This document shows positions 24,363 to 47,776 of a DNA stretch of 63,708 nucleotides, in pieces. Every line of letters begins with the position of its first letter. The first letter of the stretch is position 1. The stretch is from Peptococcaceae bacterium (lineage in GTDB: Bacteria > Bacillota > DSM-12270 > Thermacetogeniales > Thermacetogeniaceae): assembly GCA_023249405.1 (NCBI GenBank), contig JAHFCR010000008.1, forward strand, positions 13,295 to 77,002, given 5' to 3'. Under the pieces are notes generated by a model. That model made no database searches and was not told the origin of the DNA. It saw only the letters and a program-made list of their open reading frames with translations. Made by a program: the position numbers and the translations under genes.

Positions 24363-24491
24363 CGATCGTTCCTCCTCTGTGATTCGTGGTTGTAAGCGGT
24401 TCATAATCAGGGACTGGCAATCATCAGGTTGTTTCTGCCACAGCGCAGACCATAAGCACTCCCCGTGTCACCAGCCCCATATGAGTCTTGC

Positions 24492-31085: not shown

Positions 31086-31967
31086 TTATCCCTCTAGCTT
31101 TACACCCGACGCCTTGGCGTCCAAAATCTTTTTGACCAGGGTGGACAGGTGCGCCCCCGCCTCGGCGGCAGGTGTGCCTCCCCTATGAATGTTGCTCAGC
31201 ACCGTCCGCTCGCTCTCCAGCATCCCCGCCCTGGGATGGTAGCCGATATAGGCGCTGAGGCTCTCGGCGGTGCCTAGCCCGGGCCGCTCACCGATCAGAA
31301 TGACAGCCGCCTGTGGCTGGAGTTCTTCACCGATGACATCCATCACCGCAACCCGGGCATACTTGATAAAAAGTGGAGGGTTGCACTTGACCCCCACGGA
31401 GGACAGGCCCTGGATCAGAGCGGGGAGCAGATCGGGAACGTTGGCCTCCGCCGCCTTGCTCGACAGGCCGTCGGCAACCACGATCTGCACCTGCGCCCCC
31501 TTGGGGCAGGCCTGCCTGATCTGCTCCAGGGCATCATTGCCCAACCTGCGCCCGAGGTCGGGCCGGGTTAGATACTCATCCTTGTCCTGGCAGAGAGTCT
31601 GGACCGCCACCATGTTCATTTTGGCTATGAAATCGGCGGACACTTCCCCCATTACGGAGTCCTGGGCCACCGCATGATCAGCCCGAAAGCGGAGCAGGGT
31701 ATCCGTCAGCGGCCTGGTGCCGCAGCGCCACACCCCGAGGCGCGCCGGGGTGGAGAGCTTCATCTCCTCGTAATGCAGGCGGTTGACCGGGTTCGGCACC
31801 TGAAGGTAGCGCTGCAGGTCCACCCCGGACAGATCGCTCAGTTCCATGCCCTCTCCGGCCGGAACGGCTGTCGCCGGCTGGGGACTATCGCCTGCCGGCC
31901 CCCGCCTCCTGTCCAGTTCCCCGATCACTTGCTCGACGATGGTGCGGATATTGTCTTCCAGCGCCAT
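31086..31967 (-). CDS. eutC: ethanolamine ammonia-lyase small subunit, copy 1
   Basis: Small subunit (293 residues) of the adenosylcobalamin-dependent lyase that splits ethanolamine to acetaldehyde and ammonia. Seen: an N-terminal amphipathic helix NIRTIVEQVIGELDRR, of the encapsulation-peptide type. Then come [30 protein letters not shown] and [23 protein letters not shown], where B12 is held. ATG 31967 lies 13 bases after eutB1 with AAGGGGGAG upstream. It pairs with the canonical EutB1. Confidence 0.95.
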   Translation of the reverse strand: MALEDNIRTIVEQVIGELDRRRGPAGDSPQPATAVPAGEGMELSDLSGVDLQRYLQVPNPVNRLHYEEMKLSTPARLGVWRCGTRPLTDTLLRFRADHAVAQDSVMGEVSADFIAKMNMVAVQTLCQDKDEYLTRPDLGRRLGNDALEQIRQACPKGAQVQIVVADGLSSKAAEANVPDLLPALIQGLSSVGVKCNPPLFIKYARVAVMDVIGEELQPQAAVILIGERPGLGTAESLSAYIGYHPRAGMLESERTVLSNIHRGGTPAAEAGAHLSTLVKKILDAKASGVKLEG

Positions 31968-31979: not shown

Positions 31980-33344
31980 TTATCTGGCGAAAATAGTGGC
32001 ATCGCCCGCCCGTGATGTCAATTTTCCGTTCTCCATGATGCCCATTGATTCCAGCCACAGTTCGAATTCCTGCAGAGGCCGCAGCCTGAAGACCTCTCTC
32101 AGGGTCGCGACGTCGTGATAGCTGGTGCACTGATAGTTGAGCATCACATCGTCCCCCATGGGCACACCCATGAAATAGGTGCATCCGGCCGCAGCCAGCA
32201 GTCCCGCCAGGTTCTCGATATCGTTCTGGTCGGCTTTCATATGGTTGGTGTAACAGGCGTCACAGCCCATCGGGATGCCTGTCAGCTTGCCCATGAAATG
32301 GTCTTCCAGCCCCGCCCTGATCACCTGGCGGTTGTCGTAGAGGTACTCGGGGCCGATAAACCCGACCACCGTATTGACCAGGTAGGGCTTGTAATGACGG
32401 GCCAGGCCGTAGCAGCGGGCCTCCAGCGTCACCTGGTCGGCTCCGAGATGCCCCTCCGAAGACAGTTCCGATCCCTGCCCGGTCTCGAAGTACATGATAT
32501 TCGGACCGGTGGCCCGGCCTAATTTCAGGCCGGCGGCATAGGCGTCATCGAGGATCTCCCTGGTCACCCCGAAGGCATTGTTCGCCGCTTCCGTGCCGGC
32601 TATGGACTGGAACAGGCATTGGACGGGAGCGCCCTGGCGCAGCGCCTTCACCTGGGTAGTGATGTGCGCCAGCACGCAGATCTGGGTGGGCACTTTCCAT
32701 TCGGTCACAAAATCATACAGCTTCTCCAGGCTGCGGATGGTGGCGGGTACGGAGTCATCCACCGGGTTCAGCCCGATGACGGCATCGCCGACGCCATAGG
32801 CCAGGCCTTCCTGAACGCTGGCCAGGATCCCCTCGGCAGAGTCGGTGGGGTGGTTCGGCTGCAAACGGGATGCCAGAGTCCCCGGAACGCCGATGGTGGT
32901 GTTGCAGTGGGCGCTGTTGATGATCTTGGACGCCCCCAGGATCAGGTCCAGATTGCTCATCAGCTTGGCTGCCGCCGCCACCATCTCGGATGTGAAGCCG
33001 CGGCTCAGCCGGCGTAGATCGCCGCCAGTGGTCTCACTGGCCAGAATATGCTCACGCAGCTTGGCCACGGTCCAATTCTTGATCTCGCTATAGACCGGCT
33101 CGTTGACGTCGCCGTCGATCACGCGGGAGACCTCATCCTCCTCCAATGGGACGACAGGGTTGTGGCGCAGGTCCTCCAGGGTCAATTCCGACAGTACCTG
33201 CTTGGCGGCGATCCGCTCGGCGGCATTCCCGGCAGCGATACCGGCCAGAATATCTCCCGACTTGACCTCGTTTGCCTTGGCTAAGACATCCTTCACCGAC
33301 TGGAAGGCGTAACTCTGGCCAAAAAGGCGGGTCTTCAAGTTCAA
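31980..33344 (-). CDS. eutB: ethanolamine ammonia-lyase large subunit, copy 1 (canonical)
   Basis: The 454-residue catalytic TIM-barrel subunit. Numbering is collinear with E. coli EutB, and the substrate residues known from that enzyme are all present: Arg160, Gln162 (SRLQPN), Asn193 (GLNPV), Glu287 (YFETGQG) and Asp362 (MGCDACYTNH, codon 32261-32259). It should therefore use ethanolamine. The TTG start at 33344 follows GGAGGGATGAGCC. It lies upstream of eutC1 and downstream of eutJ and the ethanolamine permease. Confidence 0.95.
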   Translation of the reverse strand: MNLKTRLFGQSYAFQSVKDVLAKANEVKSGDILAGIAAGNAAERIAAKQVLSELTLEDLRHNPVVPLEEDEVSRVIDGDVNEPVYSEIKNWTVAKLREHILASETTGGDLRRLSRGFTSEMVAAAAKLMSNLDLILGASKIINSAHCNTTIGVPGTLASRLQPNHPTDSAEGILASVQEGLAYGVGDAVIGLNPVDDSVPATIRSLEKLYDFVTEWKVPTQICVLAHITTQVKALRQGAPVQCLFQSIAGTEAANNAFGVTREILDDAYAAGLKLGRATGPNIMYFETGQGSELSSEGHLGADQVTLEARCYGLARHYKPYLVNTVVGFIGPEYLYDNRQVIRAGLEDHFMGKLTGIPMGCDACYTNHMKADQNDIENLAGLLAAAGCTYFMGVPMGDDVMLNYQCTSYHDVATLREVFRLRPLQEFELWLESMGIMENGKLTSRAGDATIFAR

Positions 33345-33522: not shown

Positions 33523-34383
33523 TCATCCTGGCTCCTGACTCCTGTCTACCGACTCCTGATCAGCGGCGACAGCATGCAGGGCAATTCCCAGCGGAGTCAC
33601 CAGGAAGGGATTGCCGGGCTTGACTACGGTCAGGCCAGTTTCCTGGGCGATGACCCCGCCGATGTATTTGTTGCAACTGGTGCCGCCTACCAGGTAGAGC
33701 GTTGGCACCGTGTATTCCTTTATGTGAGTGCGGATGATGCTGGCCACCTTCTCCATCACCGGCCTGATCAGGGGCTGGAGCCGGTCCTCCTGGGCCGGGT
33801 CTATCTTCATGGTCTCGGCTTCTTCGAAAGGGATCTTCAGGGCGCCGGCGATCACCAGGCTGAACTGCGTGCCGCCGGTAGGCTCATCGGCCACGTAGAC
33901 CACCTCGCCCTTCCTGAAGACCGCCACACCGGTAGTGCCGCCGCCAATATCCACCACCGCCCCGTCGGTGATGCCCAGCACCGCGTTGGCGGCCGTCGGT
34001 TCGTCAATAGAGCCCCGGACATCAAAACCGGCAGACTGGGCCACGTATCTGATCGCCCTCATGTCAGCGCCACCGGTTCCCGGCGGGTAGGCGGTGGCCG
34101 CGGCGTACAGTTCCGTTCCCAGCCTGGCTTCCAGTTCAGCCTTCAGCTCCTTGACGATCTCCACCGCCCGCATGTACTCCACTACCAGCCCGTCCTTGAC
34201 CACCTGGGCAAAGCGCATGGCGCCGGCCACCGGTTGGCCCTGGCCATCCACCACCGCCAGCACAATGTAGGCCGTGCCCAGGTCCACGCCGGTGTACAGG
34301 CTGGAACCGGGAACCGGCCTTACCGGATTGGCGATGGTCTCTTCAAACCGCTGGATCAGATGATTGCAGCCATCTAGTGCCAC
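33523..34383 (-). CDS. eutJ: EutJ chaperone-like ATPase
   Basis: About 286 residues of the actin/Hsp70-like fold. Seen: phosphate-1 motif TGVDLGTAYIVLAVVD, VVDIGGGTTGVAVF, and a C-terminal LYLVGGTSCNKYIG, all as in EutJ. In ethanolamine loci it is thought to help shell or lyase assembly. GTG 34383 is placed nine bases after GGAGG; an ATG at 34392 touches that site. It precedes eutB1 on the same strand. A gap of about 180 bases separates them, in which I see no gene. Confidence 0.88.
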   Translation of the reverse strand: MALDGCNHLIQRFEETIANPVRPVPGSSLYTGVDLGTAYIVLAVVDGQGQPVAGAMRFAQVVKDGLVVEYMRAVEIVKELKAELEARLGTELYAAATAYPPGTGGADMRAIRYVAQSAGFDVRGSIDEPTAANAVLGITDGAVVDIGGGTTGVAVFRKGEVVYVADEPTGGTQFSLVIAGALKIPFEEAETMKIDPAQEDRLQPLIRPVMEKVASIIRTHIKEYTVPTLYLVGGTSCNKYIGGVIAQETGLTVVKPGNPFLVTPLGIALHAVAADQESVDRSQEPG

Positions 34384-34493
34384 GAGCAACATCCTCCGGA
34401 ATTGACGCTGTCAGATCTTTCTTTATGATTGCCCATTCACCAGGTTTTTTCACATTGCAAATATAGAAGTTAGAGATTCACCGGCCAGCCTTG

Positions 34494-35879
34494 CTAAACA
34501 TCAAGCTCGTCCAGGGCGGCGAACTCTTCCTCAAACGGACGGACGTTCTTGTTGCCCCAGATGTAGTAGTAGATGATCGCCAGTATGTAAATGACCACCG
34601 TCCACTTGAGCGCCGGTAGGCTGGAGATGGCCACCCCGTACAGGCAGAACAGACCGGTAATGAAGCTGATGATCGGGATCCACGGGTACCAGGTAACCCT
34701 GAAGGGCCGCTTCAGGTTGGGCTCCTTCGCCCGCAGCACGAACAGGGAGATCAGGCTGAGCAGGTACAGGGCGACCGCCCCGAAGGCCGAGATCGTGATC
34801 ACCGTTGCCGTCAGTCCTGTCAGCACCGCGGCGATGCCGACGATGCCGGGAACGACCAGCGCCCAGACGGGGGAGTGATGCCTCGGGTCGACATAGGCCA
34901 GGAACTTCGGCAAATAGCCGGAGCGGGCCATGGCGTAGGTCTGCCGGGAGTAACCGACCATGATCCCGTGCAGTGAGGCGATCAGGCCGGCCAGAGCGAT
35001 AAAGTTCACGGCCAGCACGATGAAGCTCCTGGCGCCGTAAACCGCCCCCAAAGCCACCGGCAGCGGGTAGTCAACCGCGGTCACCAGCTTCCAGTCGGCA
35101 ATGCCGGCGGTCAGGAACAGGACGAGCAGCGCCATTACCACCAGCGTGCCCATACCGCTCAGGAATCCCTTAGGAATGTCCTTCTGCGGGTCGACACATT
35201 CCTCCGCCGCCATCGCTCCGCCCTCGATAGCCAGGTAGAACCAGATGGCAAAGGGTACGGCAGCCAAAACTCCATTCCAACCGAACGGCAGCAGCGGCTG
35301 AGTGATCACCAGAGACCAGTGGAAATGGGGCGCCGCCGCCGCATAGAACATCACCAAGCCGATCGAGGCCAGGATGGTCACGACCAGTTCCACGGTCGAG
35401 GAGGTTCTCATCCCCAGGTAGTTGAGAAAGATGAAGAACAGGAAGGCCACCACGGCGGCGGGGATGGTTGCTACGCCGGGTATCCAGTAGTGGATGGCGC
35501 CGCCGACCGCCAGGGCTACCGCCGGAGGGGCGAAGACAAACTCGACCAGGCAGCTGATCCCGTTGAGGTAGCCCCAGAAGGTTCCCAACGCCCGCCTGGC
35601 ATAGGCGGAGGGGCCGCCGGCGTGCGGTATGGCCGTCGCCAGTTCGGAATAGGACAGGATAAAGGTTACGTAAAAGATCGTCACCGGAATCACGGCGATC
35701 GCCATCCCGATTGGTCCGGCGACACCAAAGCCGTAGCTCCAGCCAAAGTACTCGCCCGAGATCACCAGCCCTACCGCCAGCGCCCAGAGATGGATCGGTT
35801 TCAGGCACCGGACCAGCCTGGCGCCGTCTTCCTTTTTGCCTGCGTCCGGTTTGCCCAGGGCTTCTGCTGCTGTGCTCAT
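34494..35879 (-). CDS. eat: ethanolamine permease (APC superfamily, Eat type)
   Basis: A 461-residue inner-membrane transporter with 12 predicted helices. Seen: LKPIHLWALAVGLVISGEYFGWSYGFG at the N-terminus, a signature of ethanolamine permeases, and IPHAGGPSAYARRALGTFWGYLNG. It replaces EutH in this locus. ATG 35879 has AAGGAGGCAAGCAG upstream. It ends in TAG (34496-34494). Its place between the lyase genes supports uptake of ethanolamine or a methylated relative. Confidence 0.88.
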   Translation of the reverse strand: MSTAAEALGKPDAGKKEDGARLVRCLKPIHLWALAVGLVISGEYFGWSYGFGVAGPIGMAIAVIPVTIFYVTFILSYSELATAIPHAGGPSAYARRALGTFWGYLNGISCLVEFVFAPPAVALAVGGAIHYWIPGVATIPAAVVAFLFFIFLNYLGMRTSSTVELVVTILASIGLVMFYAAAAPHFHWSLVITQPLLPFGWNGVLAAVPFAIWFYLAIEGGAMAAEECVDPQKDIPKGFLSGMGTLVVMALLVLFLTAGIADWKLVTAVDYPLPVALGAVYGARSFIVLAVNFIALAGLIASLHGIMVGYSRQTYAMARSGYLPKFLAYVDPRHHSPVWALVVPGIVGIAAVLTGLTATVITISAFGAVALYLLSLISLFVLRAKEPNLKRPFRVTWYPWIPIISFITGLFCLYGVAISSLPALKWTVVIYILAIIYYYIWGNKNVRPFEEEFAALDELDV

Positions 35880-35911: not shown

Positions 35912-36250
35912 TTATTTTTGATAAGCAGACAGTTCCGCCCAGTTGGCCGGATAGGTGACGAAGAAGAACTTCACCTTGCCGGGGGCCGAGAAGGTGACGC
36001 TGGCATTGGCAGGAATGTAGAAAACATCGCCCGCCTGGCCGCGATAGGTCTGCCCGTTGACCTTGAATTCCAGCATGCCGTCGACGACGTAATCGATCTC
36101 CTCATACTTCAGCGTCCAGTCAAAGCTAGTTTTTTCCATGGTCATGAAACCGCTGGCCATGTTGGGGCTTTCCTTGATGCTCAGGATCTCCCCGATCCCT
36201 ACCTTGTCGTCCGGGTGTTTTTCATGTTTGTTCACCAGCTCCCCGTGCAT
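35912..36250 (-). CDS. cupin protein similar to the EutQ C-terminal domain
   Basis: A 112-residue single cupin. Seen: GFMTMEKTSFDWTLKYEEIDYVVDG and GQAGDVFYIPANASVTFSAPG, then the ending TYPANWAEL. This is nearly the same ending as the full EutQ at 40606-41238 (TYPANWDELS). It is therefore a second, domain-only EutQ, paralleling the duplicated lyase. It has lost the N-terminal EutQ segment and its encapsulation helix. EutQ family proteins have been linked to acetate kinase activity or shell assembly; the role of this short form is unknown. Confidence 0.8.
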   Translation of the reverse strand: MHGELVNKHEKHPDDKVGIGEILSIKESPNMASGFMTMEKTSFDWTLKYEEIDYVVDGMLEFKVNGQTYRGQAGDVFYIPANASVTFSAPGKVKFFFVTYPANWAELSAYQK

Positions 36251-36331
36251 TTATGCCCCAAAATATCTTCTTTGCCACCTGTTTCCAGGTCCCCCGCAGG
36301 TTGTCTTCCAAGTAAAATTGCTATGAAATCG

Positions 36332-36640
36332 TTATGAATCCTCATGTTCTTTGTCTATGAAGCGTTTCCTCACCGCATCCAGCGCCGCCCCGACCTCGGC
36401 AATATCGCCCAGGATGGCGATCATGGTAAAGTGTTGGGGACAGATCCCCCTGATCTCCTCCACCCAGACCTCCGCTGCCTTCTCGGCCACATCCGTGGCG
36501 GCGATCATATCCGCCAGCATCCCCTGCACCAGTCCCACGGCCCCTGGATTGGTCGTCAGGAGGCGTTCACGGTCGGCTGCCCGCCGGGACAGCATCTGCA
36601 TGACGCCCACAGTCGGGGCCTTGATGAACTGCAGTTTCAT
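36332..36640 (-). CDS. BMC-domain-like small protein
   Basis: About 102 residues. The pattern KAPTVGVMQMLSRRA, GAVGLVQGMLADMIAATDVAEKAA and HFTMIAILGDIAEVGAALDAV fits a BMC shell fold. The usual order of BMC segments is altered and the sequence is far from EutM. ATG 36640 follows AGGAGGCGCGGCC; the longer frame to 36709 is unsupported. It lies between eutA and the cupin gene. It could be a minor shell protein or a shell-associated factor. Confidence 0.6.
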   Translation of the reverse strand: MKLQFIKAPTVGVMQMLSRRAADRERLLTTNPGAVGLVQGMLADMIAATDVAEKAAEVWVEEIRGICPQHFTMIAILGDIAEVGAALDAVRKRFIDKEHEDS

Positions 36641-36733
36641 GGCCGCGCCTCCTATCAACAGAGTTTGTTTGCTCCTCTTCCTAGGAAGCCTATAAAGCAT
36701 GAAGCGCAACTTGGCTTCCGCCTGCGCCGGGCA

Positions 36734-38242
36734 TCAGAGTGGGTAGTCCTCCGGAAAATCATCTGCAGCTGCGGGGCTGTTGAAGACCAGCGTTTTTACC
36801 ACCACCGGCACCACACTGCCGCCCATGATCGGTTTTCCGATGTCGATGTAGTCTCCCTCGTCGACCCAGACCTGGTCGATGCAGATGACCTCATTCTGGC
36901 TGCCGAGGACTGCCGCCAGGCACTGCCCCAGCACCTTGCCGCAGTCCTCCTCCAGCACCACCACCAGTGGCCTGCCGCCTGACAGGTACTGCTCCAGCCC
37001 CCGGATCATCCCCGCCGCCAGGGTTTGGATATCCTGAAAGCTGGCACTGCGAGGGCCCCTGAGGGCCACTGCGATCTGCTGACCGTAAACGTCGTCATCC
37101 ATACGGTCCAAAAATTGCCTGAGCACCGCCGCGATCTGTTCCTGGTGCTCGGGAACGCCGCCGCCGAAGGGGGAGATCACCATACAGTTGCGCAGCGGCA
37201 GGGTCTGTTCACTGACCTGAATGGTACTGCCGCTGATATTCACCGATTGGGCGCCGGTGCCGATCACCGTAGCCCGGATCGTCTCTCTGGGCTTGACCAG
37301 AGTGATGCCGGCTTCCAGGAAGGCGTTTTTCAACGCCCAGCCCAGCAGGGGGCCATAATCCCCGTAGACCGTGACGGCATCGACGGTGGCCGGAACGTGG
37401 TCGTTATACACGTAGTCAGCCACACCGCCGGAGATCATCACCTTGTCAAACCGGTAATCCAGCTCCAGGGGAGCGGACATCAGCAACGCCCTGGTCAGAT
37501 CGGAAAGATTATGGGCGGTGATGGCTTCCACCACGCAGTTGGCCATGGCATTGACGATCGCCTGCAACTGATGGAGGCGCACCCGCTCTCCGGCCGTCAA
37601 GCTCATTCCCAAAGCCTGGAGCACGATCCGGGCCGGTTCCGAGACAAAGATCACCTTGCCCCCATGCGGCTCGGTCTCGATCAGGCGCCCGCCGATATTC
37701 AGACAGGTAGTGTCGATGGAGCGCCCTTCCCGGAACACGGCGATGTTGGAAGTGCCCCCGCCCACGTCGATGTTCATGGTGACCTGGTGATGCAGCTTCG
37801 AGTAGGCAGCGGCGCCCGACCCCTTGCCGGCAAAGATCGATTCCAGGTTGACGCCGGCAGTGGCGACCACAAAGTCTCCCGCATAGCCGGTCAGGGCATC
37901 CATGATGTTCCTGGCATTTTCCTTTTTAGCCGTCTCCCCGGTAATGATCACCGCCCCGGTGTCGATCTCGGCCGGCGTCACCCCGGCAGCCCGGTATTCC
38001 CGGTCCACGATCCCGGACACGGCCACAGCGTTGATCAGGTCATGGCTCAGCAGCGGAGTCAAGTAAATGTCGCTCCTGTGCAGCACTTCCTTGTTGGTGA
38101 TCTCCATTCGCGGCACCGCCGTGGTGGGAGCGGTATTTTCCACGGTGAGGCGGCTGATAATCAGTTGTGTCGTAGTCGTTCCCACGTCGATGCCGACGCT
38201 GATGATCACCTGCGAACGGGAGCTTTTCACCTGCTTCGCCAC
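36734..38242 (-). CDS. eutA: ethanolamine ammonia-lyase reactivating factor EutA
   Basis: A 502-residue ASKHA-fold ATPase that expels damaged cobalamin from the lyase. Seen: [45 protein letters not shown] and [11 protein letters not shown], the standard EutA motifs. It starts with GTG 38242, 20 bases after eutC2. Only one EutA serves the two lyases encoded here. Confidence 0.94.
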
Positions 38243-38261: not shown

Positions 38262-39167
38262 CTATTTCGTCGACTGCGTGAACCTTACCCCGCTCACTTT
38301 GGCGGCCAATATCTGTTTCAATAATGTGGCCAGGTGCGCCCCGGCCTCCGCCGGAGGGATGCCGCCCTTGTGAATGTTGGAGATCACTGTCCGGTCAGCC
38401 TCCACCGTGTTCGCATCCGGCCGGTAGATGATGTAGGCGCTCAGGCTGTCCGCCGTTACCAGACCGGGCCGCTCTCCGATCAGGGAGATCACCACTTCCG
38501 AATTGAGCAGCATGGCTACCGGGTCCTGGACCCACACCCGCCCGTACTTGATGAAGAAGGTGGAGCTGGCCACCTTGATGCCCTGGGCGTTCAACCCCTG
38601 GACGAGAGCCGGCAGCAGGTCGGGCACATTGGCCTCGATAGCGCTGGAACTCAGGCCGTCTACCACCAGGATCTGCACCTGGGCGTTTTGCTGGCCCTTT
38701 TCTCTGACGGTTTGAGCCGCCGCCTCCGAGAGCTTCCGTCCCTGTCCGGGGCGGGTCAAAAATTCGTCCCGGTCCCGGGCGGCGCTCTGGATCGGAACCA
38801 GGTTCAGGCGCTGGATAAACTCCCCGGAAACATCGGTGAAGACCGCGTCCTGGGCGGCGGCATGATCGGCCAGGAAACGCAGCCAGGAAACCGTCTTCGG
38901 CCTGGCGCCGGCCCTCCAGATGCCGATCCGGGCTGGAGTCGCCCTCCTCATCGCCCGGATCTCCTCCAGGCTGACCGGGTCTGGCACCAGCACATCATCC
39001 GGTGGCAGAGATATCGCCTGATCGTCGGAGACAGCCGACGGCCTGGCGGCCGTCGGCTGGGCCAGCGGTTGCTGGGCCGCGCCGCCGCCGTCCAGCATGC
39101 CTTTCCTGGCCAGCTCCTTGATCACGTTTTCCACTATCAATTTTTCAAAGGCGCTGTCTGTGCTCAT
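38262..39167 (-). CDS. ethanolamine ammonia-lyase-like small subunit, copy 2
   Basis: A 301-residue EutC paralogue. Seen: N-terminal amphipathic helix [19 protein letters not shown] of the encapsulation type and a Pro/Ala/Gln-rich linker. The core follows with [29 protein letters not shown] and [23 protein letters not shown]. It sits 17 bases after the divergent EutB2 and should form its complex. It ends in TAG (38264-38262), unlike copy 1. Substrate range probably follows EutB2. Confidence 0.93.
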
Positions 39168-39183: not shown

Positions 39184-40548
39184 TTATTTCTCGAAGATCG
39201 ACGGGTCGCCGGCGCGTTTGGTCAGTTGCCCGTCCTTCCAGACTCCGATTTTTTCCAGCCACCGTTCGAACTCCGGCAGCGGCCGCAGGCCGAGCATCTC
39301 CCGCACCGTGGCGTCATCGTGGAAACTGGTGTCCTGGTAGCTGAGCATGATGTCGTCACCGCCGGGAACTCCCATGAAATAGTTCGCTCCGGCTGCGGCG
39401 CAGACCAGCGTGCCCAGCTCCTGATCGTTCTGGTCCGATTTCATGTGGTTGGTGTAGCAGGGGGCAATGCCCATGGGGATACCGTGCAGCTTGCCCATGA
39501 ACAGGTCTTCCAGGTCGGCCCTGATCACTTCCCGGCCGGAATAGATCGTCTCCGGCCCGATGAAGCCGGACACATTGTTGAGCATGAACGGCCTGAAGCG
39601 GCGCCCGAAGCCGTAGGTCCTGGCCTCGAGAGTCTGCATATCCACGCCGAGGTCGGCATCCAGCGACACCTCGGAGCCCTGCCCGGTCTCGAAGTACATC
39701 AGGTTGGGGCCGGCAGCCGTGCCCTTGCGGGTCACCAGGTCGTACGCCTGGCTCAGCAGGGCAGCGTCGATCCCGAAGGCCTCGTTGGCCTTCTGGGTTC
39801 CGGCAATGCTCTGAAAGACCACGTCTACCTGAGCGCCCAGTTCGATCGCCTTCATGGTGGTGGTAACATGACAGAGCACGCAAGCCTGGGTGGGGATCTC
39901 CCACTTGTGTATGAAGGCCTTGACGGTATCCAGCATGCGCGTCACCTGATCGGCGTCATCATTTACCGGGTTGATGCCGATCACCGCATCACCGGAACCG
40001 TAGGTCAGCCCCTCCTTGATGGAGGACATGATCCCCTCGATGTTGTCGGTCGGATGGTTGGGCTGGTTGCGAAAAGCCAGCGTGCCCGGAACGCCGAGCG
40101 TGGTATTGCAGTGGACCTGCACACGCATCTTTTTGGAGGCGTATGCCAGGTCGAGGTTGGACATCAGCTTGGCGCAACCGGCAATCATCTCACTGGTCAG
40201 ACCGCGGCTGATATTCAGGATGTCGTCGTTGCTGGTCTCGTGCTCCATGAGATATTCCCGCAACTGCCCCACCGTCCAGCCCTTGATCCGGTTATAGACG
40301 GTCATGTTCAGGTCATCGTAGATCACCCGGGTGACCTCGTCCGACTCATAGGGAATAGTAGGGTTGTTGTAGATATCCTCCAGGGTGAGGCTGGCCAGCA
40401 CCAGCTTGGCGGCAACCCGCTCCGAGGCGGTATTGGCAGCCACGCCCACCAGGGCGTCGCCTGATTTCTCCTCGCTGGCCTTGGCAAGCACATCCTTGAC
40501 ACTGTTGAAAGCATAGATCTTGTTGTGCAGGTTAGCCTTCAAGATCAC
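39184..40548 (-). CDS. ethanolamine ammonia-lyase-like large subunit, copy 2 (divergent active site)
   Basis: A 454-residue EutB paralogue aligned without gaps to EutB1 and E. coli EutB through the positions discussed. It keeps Arg160, Gln162, Asn193 and Glu287. Asp362 is replaced by Ala (MGIAPCYTNH, codon 39465-39463), and Leu161 by Asn (FRNQPN). Nearby positions also change, for example NNVSGF for NTVVGF around 324-329. In E. coli EutB Asp362 is described as contacting the substrate amino group, so this copy probably uses another amino-alcohol, such as an N-methylated ethanolamine. The GTG start at 40548 follows GGAGG at eight bases. Confidence 0.92.
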   Translation of the reverse strand: MILKANLHNKIYAFNSVKDVLAKASEEKSGDALVGVAANTASERVAAKLVLASLTLEDIYNNPTIPYESDEVTRVIYDDLNMTVYNRIKGWTVGQLREYLMEHETSNDDILNISRGLTSEMIAGCAKLMSNLDLAYASKKMRVQVHCNTTLGVPGTLAFRNQPNHPTDNIEGIMSSIKEGLTYGSGDAVIGINPVNDDADQVTRMLDTVKAFIHKWEIPTQACVLCHVTTTMKAIELGAQVDVVFQSIAGTQKANEAFGIDAALLSQAYDLVTRKGTAAGPNLMYFETGQGSEVSLDADLGVDMQTLEARTYGFGRRFRPFMLNNVSGFIGPETIYSGREVIRADLEDLFMGKLHGIPMGIAPCYTNHMKSDQNDQELGTLVCAAAGANYFMGVPGGDDIMLSYQDTSFHDDATVREMLGLRPLPEFERWLEKIGVWKDGQLTKRAGDPSIFEK

Positions 40549-40605
40549 CGCTCTAGCCTCCAATCATCAGTATTGGTTCAGCCTCGATCTCCGGCAGGGT
40601 CAAAC

Positions 40606-41238
40606 TCACGACAGTTCGTCCCAGTTGGCCGGATAGGTGACGTAAAAAACCTTGGCGAAACCGGGGGAACTGAACACCACCTGGGACTCCCTGGGAATAT
40701 AGAGCACGTCTCCCGGTTTCGCCCTGAAGACCTGATGATCGACCTTCAAAACGTAGTCTCCCTCGATCACGTAGTTGACCTCATCGTAGGTCATGCGCCA
40801 GGGGAGTTCCGAATGGTCGAAGGTCATGAATCCTGCCGCCAGGTTGGCTTCCCGGGAGGTGATCACGTTCGCCAGCCCCATCTTCAGACCGGGCACTGAC
40901 GTGCCGAAGGGGGGAATCTCGATGCCGGCGCCCTTCACATGGGTGGCCCGGGGGTTGGAACAGGCCGGCCTTTGAAACTCGGCCAGCACTTTCTGTACCA
41001 GTTCGTTGACATCGGTGGCCCCGATGTTTGCCGGCGCTGTTGATGGCTTTGGTGGCTCCGGCTGGACAAAACGCCTGCTCTCCCGCGTGATGTAACGGTC
41101 ATGCTCCTGGATGATCGTCAACCCCATCATGGACGCCAGGTCCTTGGCCGACGGAGTGAGCCTGCTGCCCGGTTCCAGGACGATCTCCCGGCTCTTGGCA
41201 GCCATCTCCTGCAACATGCCTTCAGTAATCAGTTTCAT
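40606..41238 (-). CDS. eutQ: EutQ
   Basis: About 210 residues. Seen: an N-terminal segment with RLTPSAKDLASMMGLTI, a shared microcompartment motif, and an amphipathic helix VNELVQKVLAEF preceded by a Pro-rich linker. The C-terminal cupin has GFMTFDHSELPW and KPGDVLYIPRESQVVF. ATG 41238 follows AGGAGGTGAGCATC. EutQ is reported to be needed for shell assembly and to have acetate kinase-like activity. It lies between pduT and eutB2. Confidence 0.92.
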   Translation of the reverse strand: MKLITEGMLQEMAAKSREIVLEPGSRLTPSAKDLASMMGLTIIQEHDRYITRESRRFVQPEPPKPSTAPANIGATDVNELVQKVLAEFQRPACSNPRATHVKGAGIEIPPFGTSVPGLKMGLANVITSREANLAAGFMTFDHSELPWRMTYDEVNYVIEGDYVLKVDHQVFRAKPGDVLYIPRESQVVFSSPGFAKVFYVTYPANWDELS

Positions 41239-41328
41239 GATGCTCACCTCCTAACCCAAAATGGCCGTTGGCCGTTGGTCGTTGGAAAAAGTTTGGTCCA
41301 ACCACCAACTACTTAAAATGGCTATGTC

Positions 41329-41877
41329 TTATAGAAGACTTTCGATCAACTGTTGATGCGGGCGCGGAATGACCACCTTGCGCACCAGCAGGCCCTTGTC
41401 TGCAGCCACCGCGCTGCCGGCCTCCACTGCCGACTTCACGGCTGCCACCTCTCCGGTCACGATGGTGTAACTCTTGCCACCGATCCCGAAGGCCAGGTGC
41501 AGCCGCAGCGGATCCACCTCGCCGGTCTTGACGGCTTTATCAGCAGCCTCGATCAGGGAGGCGACGCTGAAGGTCTCGATGATGCCGATCGCCTTGATCT
41601 CCGGCACCACGTTGGCGCAGCTGATCGCCGGGATAATGGTGCTGTGCACGTTGGGGATCACAAACTGATCAACCACGGTCTCCGCCCCCAACTCCACTCC
41701 GGCGGCCACCGACTGCTGCACTGCCGAGGTATCTCCGGCGACCAGAACGATATATTTGCCGGGGCAGATGGTCTTGGCCACCAATAACTCCACGTTGGCT
41801 GTCTTCAGCATGATGTCGCAGCCGTCGATCCCCTGGGCGATACTCGCAAACTCTACCAGCCCTATGGCGTTGATCAT
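41329..41877 (-). CDS. pduT: tandem-BMC trimeric shell protein with cluster cysteine (PduT)
   Basis: A 182-residue protein of two BMC domains that forms a trimer whose central pore carries a 4Fe-4S cluster. Cys38 in AKTICPGKYIVLVAGD matches the cluster ligand of PduT. The second domain has KAIGIIETFSVASLIEAADKAVK and KGLLVRKVVIPRPH. It starts by overlapping the pduS stop by four bases, so electron transfer across the shell from PduS through PduT is likely. A PduS-PduT pair is typical of propanediol loci rather than classic enteric eut operons. Confidence 0.93.
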   Translation of the reverse strand: MINAIGLVEFASIAQGIDGCDIMLKTANVELLVAKTICPGKYIVLVAGDTSAVQQSVAAGVELGAETVVDQFVIPNVHSTIIPAISCANVVPEIKAIGIIETFSVASLIEAADKAVKTGEVDPLRLHLAFGIGGKSYTIVTGEVAAVKSAVEAGSAVAADKGLLVRKVVIPRPHQQLIESLL

Positions 41878-43202
41878 GACCTGCCGCCACCCTTTCTCAC
41901 TGTAATTGCCTCCGGGGTCACCCCGGACACCACGCCGTCGATGCTGGCGTGCACCCTGGCTCCCAGCGCCCCCTCGGGGATCTCGCCGACCAGCATGCCC
42001 CTGGTCACCAGGTCCCCTTGCTTGACCACCGGCACTGCAGGCGCTCCCACATGCTGTTTCAGGCTGAGCGCCACCGTATCCGGTTCAAAATCATCCAAGG
42101 AAAGGGAGGCCTCCTGATGGTACCAGGCGGCCAGACCCATCCGCTGCGCCACCCGTAACGACGGGATCAGGCGGTACTCGGCCATCGGGTCCTCTTTGCC
42201 CAGCGTGCCCTGGTACTTGACCCCCCTGGCACGCAGCTCGCCTTTCAGGGCGGCGTTGATCCGCCGCGGGGAGATGCCGACCGGGCAGGCATAGATCTCG
42301 CAGAGACCGCACTCCGAACAGATCAGGGCAGCGGTCAGCAGTTCCGGGTCGCCGATATTGTTGTAGTTGGCGGCCCGCACGATCAGGTGCGGCGACAGGC
42401 GGTGGCCGATGATGTGCCGCGGACAGAGTTCGGTGCAATAACAGCACTGCTCGCAGACTGTCTTGGCCGTCTGCACCACGGATCGGATTCCCGACAGTTT
42501 CTGCCGGATCAGTGGATGATCCGCCGGCAGGGCGATCAACCCGCCGGTGGTCTTGGTCACCGGGCGTGACAGATCGGTGACCAGACTCCCCATCACCGGC
42601 CCGCCGTCGATGAAGGCCACATCGGGAGATGGACCCCCGCCGGCCAGGAGCAGCACCGCTGTCAGGGGTGTGCCGATCGGCACAGTCACCGTGATCGGCG
42701 CCGGTACGATGCCGGTCACGGTCAGGGTGCGCCTGGTTACCGGCTCACCCTGCATCGCCCTGGCCACGTTGATCAGAGTCTGGACATTGTTCACCACGAC
42801 CCCGATGTTCAGGGGGATGCCTCCCGGAGGCACCCTGCGTCCGGTGGTCAGCCAGATGGTGATCGCCTCGTCGCCGGCCGGGTAGATGTCCCGCAGGATC
42901 TCGATGCGCATCCCGGGCCTCAGATGCGGCTTGAGGGCACTGATGGCGGCCTGGTACTTGGCCTTGAGGGCGATGATCCCCTCGCCCGCCCCCGTGGATT
43001 CCATGGCGCGGGCCAGCCCTTCGACCAGCAGCGACGGGTAAACGGCAGCCAGTTGCTGGTCCGTCCGCAGCAGCGGTTCGCACTCCGCCCCGTTGACGAT
43101 CACGATCTCCGCCCGGGCGTCAAATTTGACATGAGTGGGAAAACCTGCGCCCCCGGCCCCGACGACTCCCGCCTCGCAGACCCTGGCGCTGATCTCGTTC
43201 AT
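41874..43202 (-). CDS. pduS: cobalamin reductase PduS (RnfC-like flavo-iron-sulfur protein)
   Basis: A 442-residue flavoprotein with two 4Fe-4S motifs that reduces Co(III) cobalamin and links cytosolic electrons to the compartment. Seen: the flavin and nucleotide region GVVGAGGAGFPTHVKF, cluster motifs CEQCCYCTELCPRHIIG and CSECGLCEIYACPVGIS, and a C-terminal lipoyl-like fold with VHASIDGVVSGVTPE. It is encoded between eutN and pduT, with overlaps or short gaps, and works with the EutT adenosyltransferase two genes upstream. Confidence 0.92.
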   Translation of the reverse strand: MNEISARVCEAGVVGAGGAGFPTHVKFDARAEIVIVNGAECEPLLRTDQQLAAVYPSLLVEGLARAMESTGAGEGIIALKAKYQAAISALKPHLRPGMRIEILRDIYPAGDEAITIWLTTGRRVPPGGIPLNIGVVVNNVQTLINVARAMQGEPVTRRTLTVTGIVPAPITVTVPIGTPLTAVLLLAGGGPSPDVAFIDGGPVMGSLVTDLSRPVTKTTGGLIALPADHPLIRQKLSGIRSVVQTAKTVCEQCCYCTELCPRHIIGHRLSPHLIVRAANYNNIGDPELLTAALICSECGLCEIYACPVGISPRRINAALKGELRARGVKYQGTLGKEDPMAEYRLIPSLRVAQRMGLAAWYHQEASLSLDDFEPDTVALSLKQHVGAPAVPVVKQGDLVTRGMLVGEIPEGALGARVHASIDGVVSGVTPEAITVRKGGGRS

Positions 43203-43217
43203 CTATGTCACCTGTCT

Positions 43218-43514
43218 TTAATGTTGTTCAAATGTTTCTTTGTCAATGATGCCGACTACCATGGCGTCGACGGGAATGCTCTTGTCCGGCATGGTCTGCC
43301 GGGCCGAGGAGCCTCCGACCACCATGACGATCTCCGTCTCGCCGGCGCCGATCTTGTCAGCGGCGATCATGGTCTGCCCGTACTCGGCCAACTTGACCTC
43401 GCCGTCTTTGTCGTATTCCAGGGTCACTGGCTGCACTACCAGAAACTTGAGGCCGCGCAGCGACTCTTCCTTGCGGGTCGACCAGACGTTGCCGATCACG
43501 CGCGCCAGGATCAT
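43218..43514 (-). CDS. eutN: pentameric shell vertex protein EutN/CcmL
   Basis: A 98-residue BMC-P protein capping the vertices of the shell. Seen: MILARVIGNVWSTRKEESLRGLKFLVVQPV and GETEIVMVVGGSSARQT, then MVVGIIDKE. ATG 43514 overlaps the stop of the preceding gene, with GGGAAGGGG upstream. The longer frame to 43616 only runs into that gene. Confidence 0.94.
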   Translation of the reverse strand: MILARVIGNVWSTRKEESLRGLKFLVVQPVTLEYDKDGEVKLAEYGQTMIAADKIGAGETEIVMVVGGSSARQTMPDKSIPVDAMVVGIIDKETFEQH

Positions 43515-44275
43515 CGGCGAACATCCCCTTCCCGGCGAATCTCTATCCGCCGCCGCCTGATCATGTCTTTGGCCAACGGTGAGATGATGGCGGCCGGGTT
43601 GAGCCTGACGGTGCAATCGGCCGGCCAGGCCAAGACGTCCTTTTCGGTCAGCAGCTTGCTGCCCCAGTTGATCACCGGTCCGCCGGGGGCGGCGATTGCC
43701 TGACCACTGCCGGACGCCGGTTGAAAAACGGCGGCGGCGGCGGTCTGCTCACCGCTCAGATTGTTTCCGACGATCACGCCGTAACTTTGCACCTGCTTGA
43801 GATAGCCCTCGTAGAGCTGCCGGTAGGCAGCCGGTGCCTGTGGCGTGAAGCCTGGATGCGCCGCCTCCAGTTCCACCGGTATCCCCTTGGAGATCCCCTC
43901 CGCCGCCATGATGCAGACCGGCGTGTCCCGCAGCCCCAGGGCGATCTTGGCCAGAGTGTTGGCGGAACAGTTGGGCAGCACCATTCTCTGCCATGCTCCG
44001 GCCAGCGCCTCCTGGCAGGTTACCCAGGACATTCCTGCAGGGAGCGCCGGTTTGGAGCGCTCCACCGCTGCTGTCGGCAGCACCTTCAGGGCATAGGAGG
44101 CGCCCCACTGATTGCAGAGCCGCACCAGCAGCTGCGGCAGATCCGGACTGTAATTAAGCAGCACCAGCAGCTCCGGCTGCCCGGAGGCCGGCGCCAATTG
44201 CGCCCCGAGCAGCGCCTGGATGCGGGGGTCTGCCAATACCTGGCGGATGGCCTGGACGATCAGATCCTCATTCAC
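43511..44275 (-). CDS. flavoprotein-like microcompartment cargo protein, unknown function
   Basis: A 254-residue protein I cannot name. Seen: an N-terminal amphipathic helix EDLIVQAIRQVLAD of the encapsulation type, and a flavoprotein-like core with LVLLNYSP, LPNCSANTLAKIALGL and DTPVCIMAAEGISKG. The C-terminal segment AAIISPLAKDMIRRRRIEI matches the short motif also found in EutT and EutQ. It overlaps eutT upstream and eutN downstream by four bases, so it is an integral part of the operon. It could be a flavin enzyme for cobalamin reduction inside the shell. Confidence 0.65.
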   Translation of the reverse strand: MNEDLIVQAIRQVLADPRIQALLGAQLAPASGQPELLVLLNYSPDLPQLLVRLCNQWGASYALKVLPTAAVERSKPALPAGMSWVTCQEALAGAWQRMVLPNCSANTLAKIALGLRDTPVCIMAAEGISKGIPVELEAAHPGFTPQAPAAYRQLYEGYLKQVQSYGVIVGNNLSGEQTAAAAVFQPASGSGQAIAAPGGPVINWGSKLLTEKDVLAWPADCTVRLNPAAIISPLAKDMIRRRRIEIRREGDVRR

Positions 44276-45117
44276 GTTCGCACCCCCAATGTGCTCGCGC
44301 CCGGCTGGTTTTCATACCGGGCCCTGGCCTTGCAGGCCAGGATATAAAAGGCGCTGGAGAGCCGGTTCAGTGCCGTGACAATGTCGGTCCGGGTGCAGTT
44401 TTCCTGCTCATCTATGAACGCCTCATTGGCATACAATTCCACTTCCCGGACCTTGGCCCGGAGATAGTGCAGCCTGATGGCGACCGGCCCCTGGGAGACG
44501 CTCAGGTGGGTATGTTTGACCCCGATATACTGGTGGGGATGGTGGGATACCTGCCGCAGCTCGTCCGCCGTGTAGCCGATCAGGGTATCCAGCCGGAACG
44601 GTTCCTGGCGCACCTCCGCCACCATCAGTTGACGGGCGAAGGCAGCGATCTCCTCCAGTTGGCCGACCAGCTCCTGCTCGCCCTGCTCTTGAAACCACAG
44701 CTGTGCGGCCATCAACTCGCACTGGAGCAGGTCCAGCTGCCCCCGCAGGGCGATGACCGGGTGGTTCTTGCAGACCAGGGTATTGCCATAGAGATGCGTC
44801 ATATGCTCGGGCTTGGCCTGGGCTGACGGAGCTGGCTTGCAAGCGTCATCCCGGGCGTAATTCAGCCCGGCTGCAGCCGGACGCATGTGATTCTGCCAGG
44901 CCGGCGAACTCTGGCTGGCGATCAGGCTGTGCAGGGTGGTGGAATAGTTGGATCTGTTCAGGTCCATCATCCCGTCCCCCTCGATCTGCACCTGGATCCC
45001 CTTGTTGCGCAGAAAATCCCTGGCCGCCGGCGTGATCACGCTGCCCTGCGGCACGGTGATCACCTGGGCCTTGTTCTTGTGCCAGTTGGCCCGCAATTCG
45101 TATTCCGTGATGATCAT
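44272..45117 (-). CDS. eutT: corrinoid adenosyltransferase EutT
   Basis: A 281-residue ATP:cobalamin adenosyltransferase that makes coenzyme B12 for the lyases. Seen: N-terminal GSVITPAARDFLRNKGIQV, as in EutT; the central LYGNTLVCKNHPVIALRGQLDLL; and a helical bundle ending LRAKVREVELYANEAF and ALNRLSSAFYILAC, typical of the family. The enteric metal motif H-x11-CC-x2-C is reduced to a single Cys. It therefore may not need the ferrous ion used by Salmonella EutT. It lies between the second eutM and the flavoprotein-like gene. Confidence 0.9.
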   Translation of the reverse strand: MIITEYELRANWHKNKAQVITVPQGSVITPAARDFLRNKGIQVQIEGDGMMDLNRSNYSTTLHSLIASQSSPAWQNHMRPAAAGLNYARDDACKPAPSAQAKPEHMTHLYGNTLVCKNHPVIALRGQLDLLQCELMAAQLWFQEQGEQELVGQLEEIAAFARQLMVAEVRQEPFRLDTLIGYTADELRQVSHHPHQYIGVKHTHLSVSQGPVAIRLHYLRAKVREVELYANEAFIDEQENCTRTDIVTALNRLSSAFYILACKARARYENQPGASTLGVRT

Positions 45118-45138
45118 GTCCTCACCCCGAAATTATCC

Positions 45139-45453
45139 TTATTTGTCCCCGTAGGACTTGTTGTCGCCCACAGGCAGGATGTACTCCACTTCATGATGGG
45201 GACGGGGGATGACATGCACGCTGATCAGTTCCCCGATCCGCTGAGCAGCTGCAGCCCCGGCGTCCACCGCGGCCTTCACGGCGCCGACGTCTCCGCGCAC
45301 CATGACCGATACATAACCGCCGGTGACATGCTCCTTGCCCGCCAGTTCAACATTGGCTGCCTTGAGCATCTGGTCGGCCGCCTCGATGGAGGCGATCAGA
45401 CCCTTTGTTTCAATCATGCCAAGAGCGATGACGCTGCGTTCTGGTTGAGGCAT
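45139..45453 (-). CDS. eutM: BMC hexamer shell protein EutM, copy 2
   Basis: A 104-residue hexameric shell protein with one BMC domain: [51 protein letters not shown] and [12 protein letters not shown]. It is slightly shorter at the C-terminus than the copy at 47777-48124. Two EutM paralogues probably mix in the facets. It precedes eutT by 21 bases. Confidence 0.94.
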
Positions 45454-45509
45454 TTCAGAAACCTCCTTAGATCTGGTCTGTTAATATTGTTCACATTCCA
45501 AATCCGGGC

Positions 45510-46997
45510 CTAGCTGCGGCCACCTTGCACGGTCTTCAGCACCCGGTTCACAATCTCCTGAACTAACTGGGAATCAATCTGAGCATCGCCCGCGGACGCC
45601 GGTTGGCTCTCACAGGGTTGCAGCGGGGCCACCGGAGGGCGCTCGACGCTGCGAATCGGCCAGGCCACCCGTTTGATGTTGATCAGGTGCAGCGGGCTGA
45701 CATTCTCTGAAACGCTGGAGCCGCCCCAGGTGCCGCAGCCCAGGGTGAACGCCGGGGCAAGACCGGTGGTGGCCCCGATGCCTCCGAAGGTGGACGGCGT
45801 GTTGACCAGGATCCGAAAGATCGGCTTTTTCAGGGCGAACTCCCGGATCACCGCTTCGTTGTTGCTGTGGATGGCCAGGCTGTGCCCGATGCCTCCGGCT
45901 TTTAACAGCTCGAAGCAGCGCTCGCAGCCCTCGTGCCAATCAGCCACCCGGTAGAAGGCCAGCACCGTAGTCAGCTTCTCGTGGGAGAGCGGCCACTGCG
46001 GCCCGACTCCGCCCAGCGGCGCCACCAGGCACCTGGTGCCGTCAGGAATGCTGATCCCGGCCAGTTGGGCGATCACCTTCGGGTCCCTGCCCACCACCTT
46101 GGGGTTCATGCTGCATCCCGGAAGCATCACCACCGCCGACACCTTGGCAGTCTCCTCGGCGCTCAGAAAATGCGCCCCGTTCTCCCGGAGATAGCCGATC
46201 AGCTCCTCGGCGATGCAATCCTCGGCGACGATCGACTGCTCGGAGGCGCAGATCGTCCCGTTGTCGAAAGTCTTGCCGGTGACGATATCCCTGGCAGCCT
46301 GACGCAGGTCGGCCGAGCGCTCCACGAAGGCGGGAACATTGCCCGGACCAACCCCCAGCGCCGGTTTGCCGCTGCTGTAAGCCGCCTTGACCAGGGCGCT
46401 GCCGCCGGTGGCCAGGATCATCGCAGTATCCGGATGCTTCATCAGTTCCTGGGTGGCCCCCATGCTGACCGTGCTGATGCAGCCGATCACCCCATCGGGG
46501 GCGCCCGCGGCCACCGCCGCCCCGTTCATCAGCCGGGCCGCCTCGTTGGTGCAGCGCACCGCCGAGGGATGCGGAGAAAAGACGATGGCGTTGCGGGACT
46601 TGAGGGCGATCATCGATTTGTAGATCACTGTAGCCGTGGGATTGGTGGTCGGCACGATACCGGCGATGACACCCACCGGCTCGGCGATCTCCCAGATCTT
46701 GTTGGCCTTGTCTTCCCGGACGATCCCCACCGTCTTCATCTCTTGGATGTATTCGAAGACGTACCTGGAAGCAAAGAAGTTTTTAAAGCATTTATCCTCG
46801 TATTTACCCATGCCGGTTTCGGAAACAGCCATCTGGGCCAGGCGGCAGGCATTGGCCTCACCGGCCTGGCGCATAGCGTTGATAATGGTATCGACCTGGG
46901 CCTGGGTAAATTCCTGAAGACAGTCCTGTGCCCTGCGTGCCGCCTTGACCAGGTTTCTCGTCTCCTGAATTGATGAAAGGTCTCGGTCTAGTTCCAT
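45510..46997 (-). CDS. eutE: CoA-acylating acetaldehyde dehydrogenase EutE
   Basis: A 495-residue NAD-dependent enzyme converting acetaldehyde to acetyl-CoA inside the compartment. Seen: the catalytic cysteine in TFDNGTICASEQS, GIVPTTNPTATVIYKS and KPALGVGPGNVPAF. The N-terminus begins directly with the enzyme domain. A Gln/Pro/Ala-rich linker and an amphipathic helix DSQLVQEIVNRVLKTV stand at the C-terminus, so the encapsulation helix is at the opposite end from enteric EutE. It ends in TAG (45512-45510). Confidence 0.94.
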   Translation of the reverse strand: MELDRDLSSIQETRNLVKAARRAQDCLQEFTQAQVDTIINAMRQAGEANACRLAQMAVSETGMGKYEDKCFKNFFASRYVFEYIQEMKTVGIVREDKANKIWEIAEPVGVIAGIVPTTNPTATVIYKSMIALKSRNAIVFSPHPSAVRCTNEAARLMNGAAVAAGAPDGVIGCISTVSMGATQELMKHPDTAMILATGGSALVKAAYSSGKPALGVGPGNVPAFVERSADLRQAARDIVTGKTFDNGTICASEQSIVAEDCIAEELIGYLRENGAHFLSAEETAKVSAVVMLPGCSMNPKVVGRDPKVIAQLAGISIPDGTRCLVAPLGGVGPQWPLSHEKLTTVLAFYRVADWHEGCERCFELLKAGGIGHSLAIHSNNEAVIREFALKKPIFRILVNTPSTFGGIGATTGLAPAFTLGCGTWGGSSVSENVSPLHLINIKRVAWPIRSVERPPVAPLQPCESQPASAGDAQIDSQLVQEIVNRVLKTVQGGRS

Positions 46998-47016
46998 GAA
47001 CTCCCTCTCCTCTTAT

Positions 47017-47673
47017 TTAACTGGCATACTTGAGGGGATTGGTGGCAACGTCGATAACGGCGCGCTGGAAAGCCTCACAGGCTGCCTTGCAAGCGCTCTG
47101 GGTACCCGTCAACAAGCCGCCGGCAAAGTTGGTCTCGGTCGGCGGTCCGTACCATACCTGCATGGTCACTTCGGCCGCCTTGAGGGCAGCATCAGTGCCA
47201 TACACGGCTTCGAGCGGCGGGGCGATCAGATAGGCGAGTGGCTGGCCCTCCGGAATGCCCGCCTGCTTGGACAGGTAACTCCCGGTGCGGGAGATGGTGT
47301 GCGGAAACCACACTGTTTTCCCGCCGTCACAGGAATAGAACCAGGCCTCGTTCTCCAGGTAATCGGTGCAGGCGTCCAGCCCGGCGCGCACCTCGGCCGG
47401 GTTTGGACCAGCCATGATGCCGATGATCTCTCCGGAGATCGGCCCTGAGGCATGGTTGGCGCCCGCATAGAAGCTCTTGGCGTAGACGATCTCCACCTCT
47501 GCCTTTTTAGTCGCCTCATCGAGGGCGGTGTAGGTGGAATCATCGATATTGGCCGTGACCAGGCCAATGGAGCGCTGATATGGTTTCAGTTTCAGATCTC
47601 TGGCCAGGTCCGGGGCAACGTTGGGGATGATCCTGACCGCCAGGGTCTTTGGTTTGACCGGTTCAATGACCAT
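47017..47673 (-). CDS. eutL: trimeric shell protein EutL
   Basis: A 218-residue tandem-BMC trimer with a gated central pore. Seen: LAVRIIPNVAPDLARDLKL, RSIGLVTANIDDSTYTALDEATK, and the conserved ending FAGGLLTGTQSACKAACEAF, all diagnostic of EutL. ATG 47673 follows GAGGATATTC. It stands between eutM copy 1 and eutE. Confidence 0.95.
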   Translation of the reverse strand: MVIEPVKPKTLAVRIIPNVAPDLARDLKLKPYQRSIGLVTANIDDSTYTALDEATKKAEVEIVYAKSFYAGANHASGPISGEIIGIMAGPNPAEVRAGLDACTDYLENEAWFYSCDGGKTVWFPHTISRTGSYLSKQAGIPEGQPLAYLIAPPLEAVYGTDAALKAAEVTMQVWYGPPTETNFAGGLLTGTQSACKAACEAFQRAVIDVATNPLKYAS

Positions 47674-47776
47674 GAATATCCTCCTCGTAATACAGGCGTG
47701 TTTTGAGACTGAAGCGCTCGCGTCCGAGCCCGCAGTGGGAGCATCGGTCTTTAATCAGCGCCGGATTGCAGTGCCC

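Follow-up and report, generated by a model that had tools for sequence, protein, structure and literature searches.

Ethanolamine and choline breakdown in described systems

The closest described relatives of the enzyme considered here are the EutBC ethanolamine ammonia-lyases of E. coli (3abo) and Listeria (2qez). EutB2, the second EutB of a Peptococcaceae genome, resembles them in fold, length and sequence (54-58% identity), in keeping Arg160, Gln162, Asn193 and Glu287, and in its association with an EutC partner, EutA and a microcompartment. We take these four residues to be substrate contacts of E. coli EutB and Asp362, going by the E. coli structures, to hold the substrate amine; an open-literature search on Asp362 and the active-site residues of the E. 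coli enzyme found no paper naming Asp362. EutB2 and its clade differ from these enzymes in carrying D362A, T325N, V327S, Y334T, C363P and T406D, and in the choline-demethylation genes that neighbour eutB of the Ala362 type in many genomes.

Choline demethylation has been described in E. limosum, in which MthK phosphorylates choline, MthB demethylates phosphocholine and the demethylation ends at DMAE, with an EamA gene located between mthB and mthA/C (PMC12155760). Sporomusa malonica and Ca. Formimonas warabiya are listed as choline users with mthB-mthK (PMC12155760), and both have an Ala362 EutB. The locus analysed here likewise brings together a kinase, a non-pyrrolysine MttB, a corrinoid protein and a tetrahydrofolate methyltransferase, matched to MthK, MthB, MthC and MthA by family and context, and in some Ala362 loci an EamA gene also lies between demethylation genes. 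It differs from the E. limosum system in linking a pyrrolysine MttB (Pyl-MttB), a HAD phosphatase and a eut microcompartment, a linkage suggesting further demethylation and cleavage.

Ca. F. warabiya forms acetate and methylamine from choline but neither dimethylamine nor trimethylamine, does not metabolise trimethylamine, and has had its methylamine attributed to glycine betaine and sarcosine reductase (PMC8163858). The substrate of pyrrolysine MttB has been raised as an open question for this organism (PMC9768040), which has orthologues of the Pyl-MttB described below. That protein shares an in-frame TAG with the pyrrolysine trimethylamine MttB and scores above the trimeth_pyl cut-off, but its orthologue group is a separate one, associated with choline genes and occurring in genomes that lack the dimethylamine enzyme. 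A last comparison is the CutC microcompartment, in which an N-methylated ethanolamine is split into an amine and acetaldehyde, as is only proposed for EutB2; CutC, however, is a glycyl-radical enzyme acting on choline, whereas EutB2 is a B12 enzyme of another fold.

The eut operon and its demethylation genes

The window, a stretch of 63,708 nucleotides analysed as a whole, holds both EutBC pairs in its one eut microcompartment operon, together with two sets of demethylation genes and a pyrrolysine system (Table 1).

Table 1. Features of the window, in order of position (strand given relative to the window).
Feature	Coordinates	Strand	Basis
Corrinoid activase (RACo/RamA type), MtrH-type methyltransferase, URO-D-type methyltransferase	3062..7052	+	Pfam
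Pyrrolysine system: tRNA-Pyl 9233-9304; pylD 9351-10175; pylSc 10260-11105; pylSn 11120-11488; pylC 11549-12856; pylB 12712-13815	9233..13815	-	tRNA-Pyl and pyl genes
HAD-family phosphatase	13928..14539	-	Family match; conserved neighbour in Desulfosporosinus
Methyl-corrinoid:tetrahydrofolate methyltransferase, MthA-like	14660..15457	-	Family match
Corrinoid protein, MthC-like	15488..16111	-	Family match
Non-pyrrolysine MttB, probable MthB	16165..17637	-	Pfam MTTB; below trimethylamine cut-off; orthologue distribution
APH-family kinase adjoining non-pyrrolysine MttB	17666..18889	-	Pfam APH; conserved neighbour
Choline/ethanolamine-kinase-like protein, MthK-like role proposed	22563..23606	-	Pfam Choline_kinase 4e-22
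Corrinoid protein adjoining Pyl-MttB	23724..24404	-	Pfam B12-binding
Pyrrolysine mttB, in-frame TAG 25013-25011 (Pyl329)	24492..25997	-	trimeth_pyl above cut-off
eutC1, EutB1 partner	31086..31967	-	Pfam EutC
eutB1, ordinary Asp362-type EutB	31980..33344	-	Alignment, family profile
eutJ	33523..34392	-	NCBIfam EutJ
Ethanolamine permease	34494..35879	-	NCBIfam 2A0305 above cut-off
EutQ-like cupin (35912-36250) and BMC-domain shell protein (36332-36709)	35912..36709	-	Pfam EutQ, BMC
eutA, reactivating factor	36734..38242	-	Pfam EutA 2e-176
eutC2, small-subunit partner of EutB2 (50% identity to EutC1)	38262..39167	-	Pfam EutC, NCBIfam PRK05465
eutB2, Ala362-type ethanolamine ammonia-lyase large subunit	39184..40563	-	AlphaFold model, alignment, family profile
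Remaining eut microcompartment operon genes: EutQ-like, two-domain BMC shell protein, PduS-like flavoprotein, flavoprotein, EutT-like adenosyltransferase, EutE acetaldehyde dehydrogenase, BMC shell proteins	40606..48124	-	Pfam, NCBIfam

The use of pyrrolysine in the window is indicated by an mttB with an in-frame TAG occurring together with tRNA-Pyl and pylSBCD, and the encoded Pyl-MttB is proposed to be a methyltransferase of DMAE-phosphate (or DMAE). The second MttB has no in-frame stop and lies next to the APH kinase both in the window and in Desulfosporosinus; judging by family, adjacent kinase and orthologue distribution, it is probably MthB, the phosphocholine methyltransferase. The HAD phosphatase is proposed to dephosphorylate the demethylated product. 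Directly left of the window lies a gene for a pyrrolysine MtmB (Pyl-MtmB) with one TAG (C109:12265-13200). The source genome (98.8% complete) yielded no MtbB and no match to the CutC glycyl-radical family. Elsewhere in it is an MtmB homologue without a TAG (C3:21433-22779); a recent report connects a non-pyrrolysine MtmB homologue with the use of choline and tetramethylammonium in a methanogen (PMC13044021).

EutB2 lacks one presumed substrate contact

EutB2 is encoded by a complete open reading frame of 454-459 amino acids, with a start at GTG 40548 or TTG 40563, the former being the likelier. It passes the EutB family profile NCBIfam PRK15067 (640 bits, cut-off 554), shows no gaps over its active-site region when aligned to E. 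coli EutB (3abo, 2.1e-162) and Listeria EutB (2qez), and has an AlphaFold model (pLDDT 91.6) which superposes on 3abo with a TM score of 0.96. A low-confidence stretch of the model covers residues 403-408 (E. coli 398-403), near position 406. By descent and fold EutB2 is thus a member of the EutB family, with an incomplete substrate-contact set in which four residues are kept and Asp362 is replaced; deamination of ethanolamine by it is putative.

A sequence-only reading of this DNA had placed Ala at position 362 of EutB2 (codon GCC, 39465-39463) with Gln162, Asn193 and Glu287 retained, and had given EutB1 all five of the E. coli residues. The alignment to E. coli EutB bears out both statements and adds Arg160 to the residues retained in EutB2. 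Leu161 is replaced by Asn, as had also been read; this residue was rejected as part of the signature of the clade, since position 161 varies among the relatives (N 22, C 13, L 11, I 8, V 1 of 55). The further claim that the acid had been lost holds for Asp362 itself but overlooked a new acid at position 406, by which the count of charges is restored.

The Ala362 clade

A DNA pattern for Met-Gly-x-Ala-x-Cys-Tyr-Thr-Asn-His, which covers Ala at position 362 only, was scanned over about 85,000 species genomes and matched 104 stretches, from which the EutB proteins read share one common signature. After removal of rows above 88% identity, 55 Ala362 and 32 Asp362 proteins (the latter mostly from Bacillota) were placed in a tree with the signature columns omitted, and a single branch with an SH-aLRT support of 99 parts the two groups. 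The Ala362 rows span six phyla: Bacillota, Thermodesulfobacteriota, Myxococcota, Synergistota, Spirochaetota and Actinomycetota. D362A, T325N, Y334T and T406D are present in all 55 non-redundant members and V327S and C363P in 54, while R160, Q162, N193 and E287 are invariant in both the Ala362 and the Asp362 group. At least six signature positions lie in or adjoin barrel strands. In a phylum sample of 398 genomes, close Ala362 homologues occur in 12, eleven at 67-76% identity (the window itself at 100%) and one at 65%, whereas ordinary EutB proteins of the same sample reach at most 62% identity to EutB2.

Random drift or a sequencing error at codon 362 was ruled out, since Ala362 is fixed in 55 of 55 members of one multi-phylum clade and travels together with T325N, Y334T and T406D. 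To judge by these alignments, Ala362 EutB is a separate and widespread branch of EutB whose active site appears altered, and the signature suggests an altered amine side with the other contacts retained. The family models label these proteins ethanolamine ammonia-lyase. The six co-varying positions provide a natural set for the study of a change in amine specificity in a B12 radical enzyme. One member of the clade, an Ala362 EutBC in an Egibacter-type actinomycete (L180:9208-11462), had no recognised microcompartment genes in the 12 kb read at its locus.

The presence of T406D with D362A in every non-redundant member, restoring the number of acids, means that D406 may simply replace D362. EutB2C2 could accordingly be read as an ordinary ethanolamine ammonia-lyase in which the carboxylate has moved from 362 to 406, with EutB1 and EutB2 differing only in affinity, regulation or corrinoid use and ethanolamine being supplied by the complete demethylation of choline. 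Against this, a signature of at least six positions is maintained across six phyla, and several organisms hold both EutB types side by side, some of them in tandem, which is hard to explain if the two have the same function.

The tandem arrangement raises another alternative. In Geosporobacter, Alkaliphilus, HGW-Firmicutes-2 and others, eutB(Asp362) and eutB(Ala362) lie directly in tandem before a single eutC (loci with this order include L042:1852-4599, L052:1577-4338 and L075:2159-4915), suggesting two large subunits that share one small subunit, and Ala362 EutB might then be a companion subunit assembling with ordinary EutB and the shared EutC and not an enzyme of its own. This seems very improbable, as EutB2 is paired with an EutC of its own both in this window and in most of its close relatives, Ala362 EutB is the sole EutB of a few genomes, and the remaining presumed substrate contacts are invariant.

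Gene neighbourhood across genomes

In the phylum sample, 7 of 13 Ala362 loci have an MttB superfamily gene no more than about 10 kb away, compared with none of 23 Asp362 loci (p = 2e-4), and an MthB-like orthologue (at least 61% identity, the next best match being 36%) is present in 6 of 12 Ala362 genomes against 5 of the 386 others (p = 7.5e-8), both comparisons treating related genomes as independent. Among EutB-bearing genomes the difference for the MthB-like gene is not significant (6 of 12 against 4 of 22, p = 0.11), so that part of the MthB signal reflects a general association between demethylation and eut. Of the 11 phylum-sample genomes with an MthB-like gene, 10 also have an orthologue of the window's Pyl-MttB (at least 61%).

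Genomes named from outside the phylum sample were picked after short stretches of them had been seen, and serve as examples and not as statistics. Behind eutB2-eutC2-eutA, four Desulfosporosinus species have pocR and then genes for a corrinoid protein, a kinase, MttB, a second corrinoid protein, a methyltransferase, a HAD phosphatase and an activase; the MthB-like protein of these loci is 78-79% identical to that of the window. The Desulfosporosinus eut operon includes the MthB-like gene but not Pyl-MttB, an orthologue of which is located elsewhere in the same genomes. In Sporomusa malonica, pylB, pylC, pylSn and the pyrrolysine mttB lie directly ahead of the Ala362 eut genes, and the S. acidovorans locus additionally has a choline-kinase-like gene and pylS. 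On a distant branch, a termite-gut deltaproteobacterium combines Ala362 eutB with a pyrrolysine mttB, an MthB-like gene (66%), EamA and a kinase; in 8-kb stretches from several of its relatives, part of that set is visible.

Other genomes count against an N-methylated substrate. Geosporobacter subterraneus, a Clostridiales MAG (G422) and Clostridium bowmanii have Ala362 eut operons, and searches of these genomes turned up neither a Pyl-MttB orthologue nor MtmB or MtbB; in G422 the Ala362 EutB is the sole EutB and belongs to a complete eut operon. Several other Ala362 genomes do have MtbB. Moreover, two genomes of the window's family, G005 (L183) and G008 (L184), combine these demethylation genes with an EutB of the Asp362 type: choline-kinase-like genes stand beside the Asp362 eut operon in both, and Pyl-MttB and corrinoid genes as well in G005 only. 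G422, G005 and G008 all favour an ordinary ethanolamine ammonia-lyase, whereas the absence of MttB neighbours from the sampled Asp362 eut loci speaks against it; taken with the maintained signature and the coexistence of both EutB types, this makes an ordinary lyase the less probable reading. A survey of the co-occurrence of D362A-type eutB with mttB had been put forward in the sequence-only reading, with the substitution scattered in single-copy eut loci free of methylamine genes as the contrary outcome. The association was found in the loci counted above, but some Ala362 operons without methylamine genes exist too, once with the only EutB of its genome. G005 and G008 offer a ready-made contrast by which the role of Ala362 can be judged.

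Proposed substrate and pathway

We propose, with a probability of roughly one half, that EutB2C2 is an AdoCbl-dependent lyase with an amine pocket altered for an N-methylated ethanolamine, most likely N-methylethanolamine, reading every substrate and the order of steps from the observed sequence change, its fixation across the clade, the conserved neighbourhood and the gene inventory. Choline would be taken up and converted by a kinase to phosphocholine, a quaternary amine from which the non-pyrrolysine, MthB-like MttB would detach a single methyl group, yielding dimethylaminoethanol phosphate. This tertiary amine would lose a second methyl group to the pyrrolysine MttB, and the HAD phosphatase or a kinase exchange would release N-methylethanolamine. 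In the microcompartment, EutB2C2 would then cleave N-methylethanolamine to acetaldehyde and methylamine, with EutE converting the acetaldehyde to acetyl-CoA, while the pyrrolysine MtmB encoded just outside the window would remove the last methyl group from methylamine and leave ammonia.

N-methylethanolamine fits the loss of one acid with Glu287 kept, which would correspond to a single N-H giving way to N-CH3. The gene inventory of the source genome, two Sporomusa and four Desulfosporosinus, in all of which Pyl-MtmB is present and MtbB was not found, agrees with the release of methylamine. The methylamine formed by Ca. F. warabiya is consistent with the proposal but, given the published sarcosine reductase route, is not proof of it.

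Cleavage of dimethylethanolamine with release of dimethylamine, after a single demethylation of choline, would agree with the end point at DMAE in E. limosum (PMC12155760), with a Desulfosporosinus eut operon that has the MthB-like gene and not Pyl-MttB, and with the fact that seven of the Ala362 Bacillota in the phylum sample have MtbB, which uses dimethylamine. It is nonetheless improbable, with just one acid contact lost, Pyl-MtmB but no MtbB in the source genome, Sporomusa and Desulfosporosinus, and a Pyl-MttB orthologue elsewhere in those same Desulfosporosinus genomes.

As for choline itself, EutB2C2 would be a B12-dependent counterpart of CutC releasing trimethylamine, a view to which the lack of CutC in the source genome and the score of Pyl-MttB above the NCBIfam trimethylamine cut-off lend some weight. 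However, CutC was found in 8 of 31 Ala362 genomes tested, among them Desulfosporosinus, S. malonica and Desulfoluna, where it coexists with Ala362 EutB, and in the source genome, without MtbB, the breakdown of trimethylamine would end at dimethylamine; choline was on these grounds judged an unlikely substrate. The kinases and the probable phosphocholine demethylase in the gene sets, the retention of Glu287, Gln162 and Asn193, and the absence of trimethylamine among the choline products of Ca. F. warabiya (PMC8163858) also argue against such an enzyme, to which we give hardly any credence. The expectation of a bulkier or permanently charged amine in the sequence-only reading is therefore borne out in so far as a methylated amine is best supported by the context, but N-methylethanolamine fits better than choline or dimethylethanolamine, with one acid lost, no MtbB in the source genome and CutC available for choline in some of the genomes.

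A broader version of the N-methylethanolamine proposal, which we hold more tentatively, is that the Ala362 clade as a whole may represent an unrecognised B12-dependent N-methylethanolamine lyase and that the linked Pyl-MttB may act on dimethylaminoethanol phosphate and not on trimethylamine. If so, anaerobes could use choline in full without forming trimethylamine, with the Ala362 lyase completing the route; dimethylaminoethanol phosphate would add a new substrate to those of pyrrolysine enzymes, and the pyrrolysine MttB that acetogens and sulfate reducers possess would gain a substrate. An N-methylated substrate would also mean that about a hundred genome stretches contain eut operons with a wrong annotation. 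A literature search linking ethanolamine ammonia-lyase with N-methylethanolamine found no relevant paper.

Two further features of the source genome concern its other eut genes. A third EutB is fused to EutC in a single frame of 764 amino acids, has Asp362 and adjoins a gene for an APC-type permease (contig C113, L001:739-3033). Within the window, a gene for a DUF1638 protein (30301-30987) adjoins eutC1, and a DUF1638 gene is also found near the demethylation genes of one Desulfosporosinus Ala362 locus (L167).
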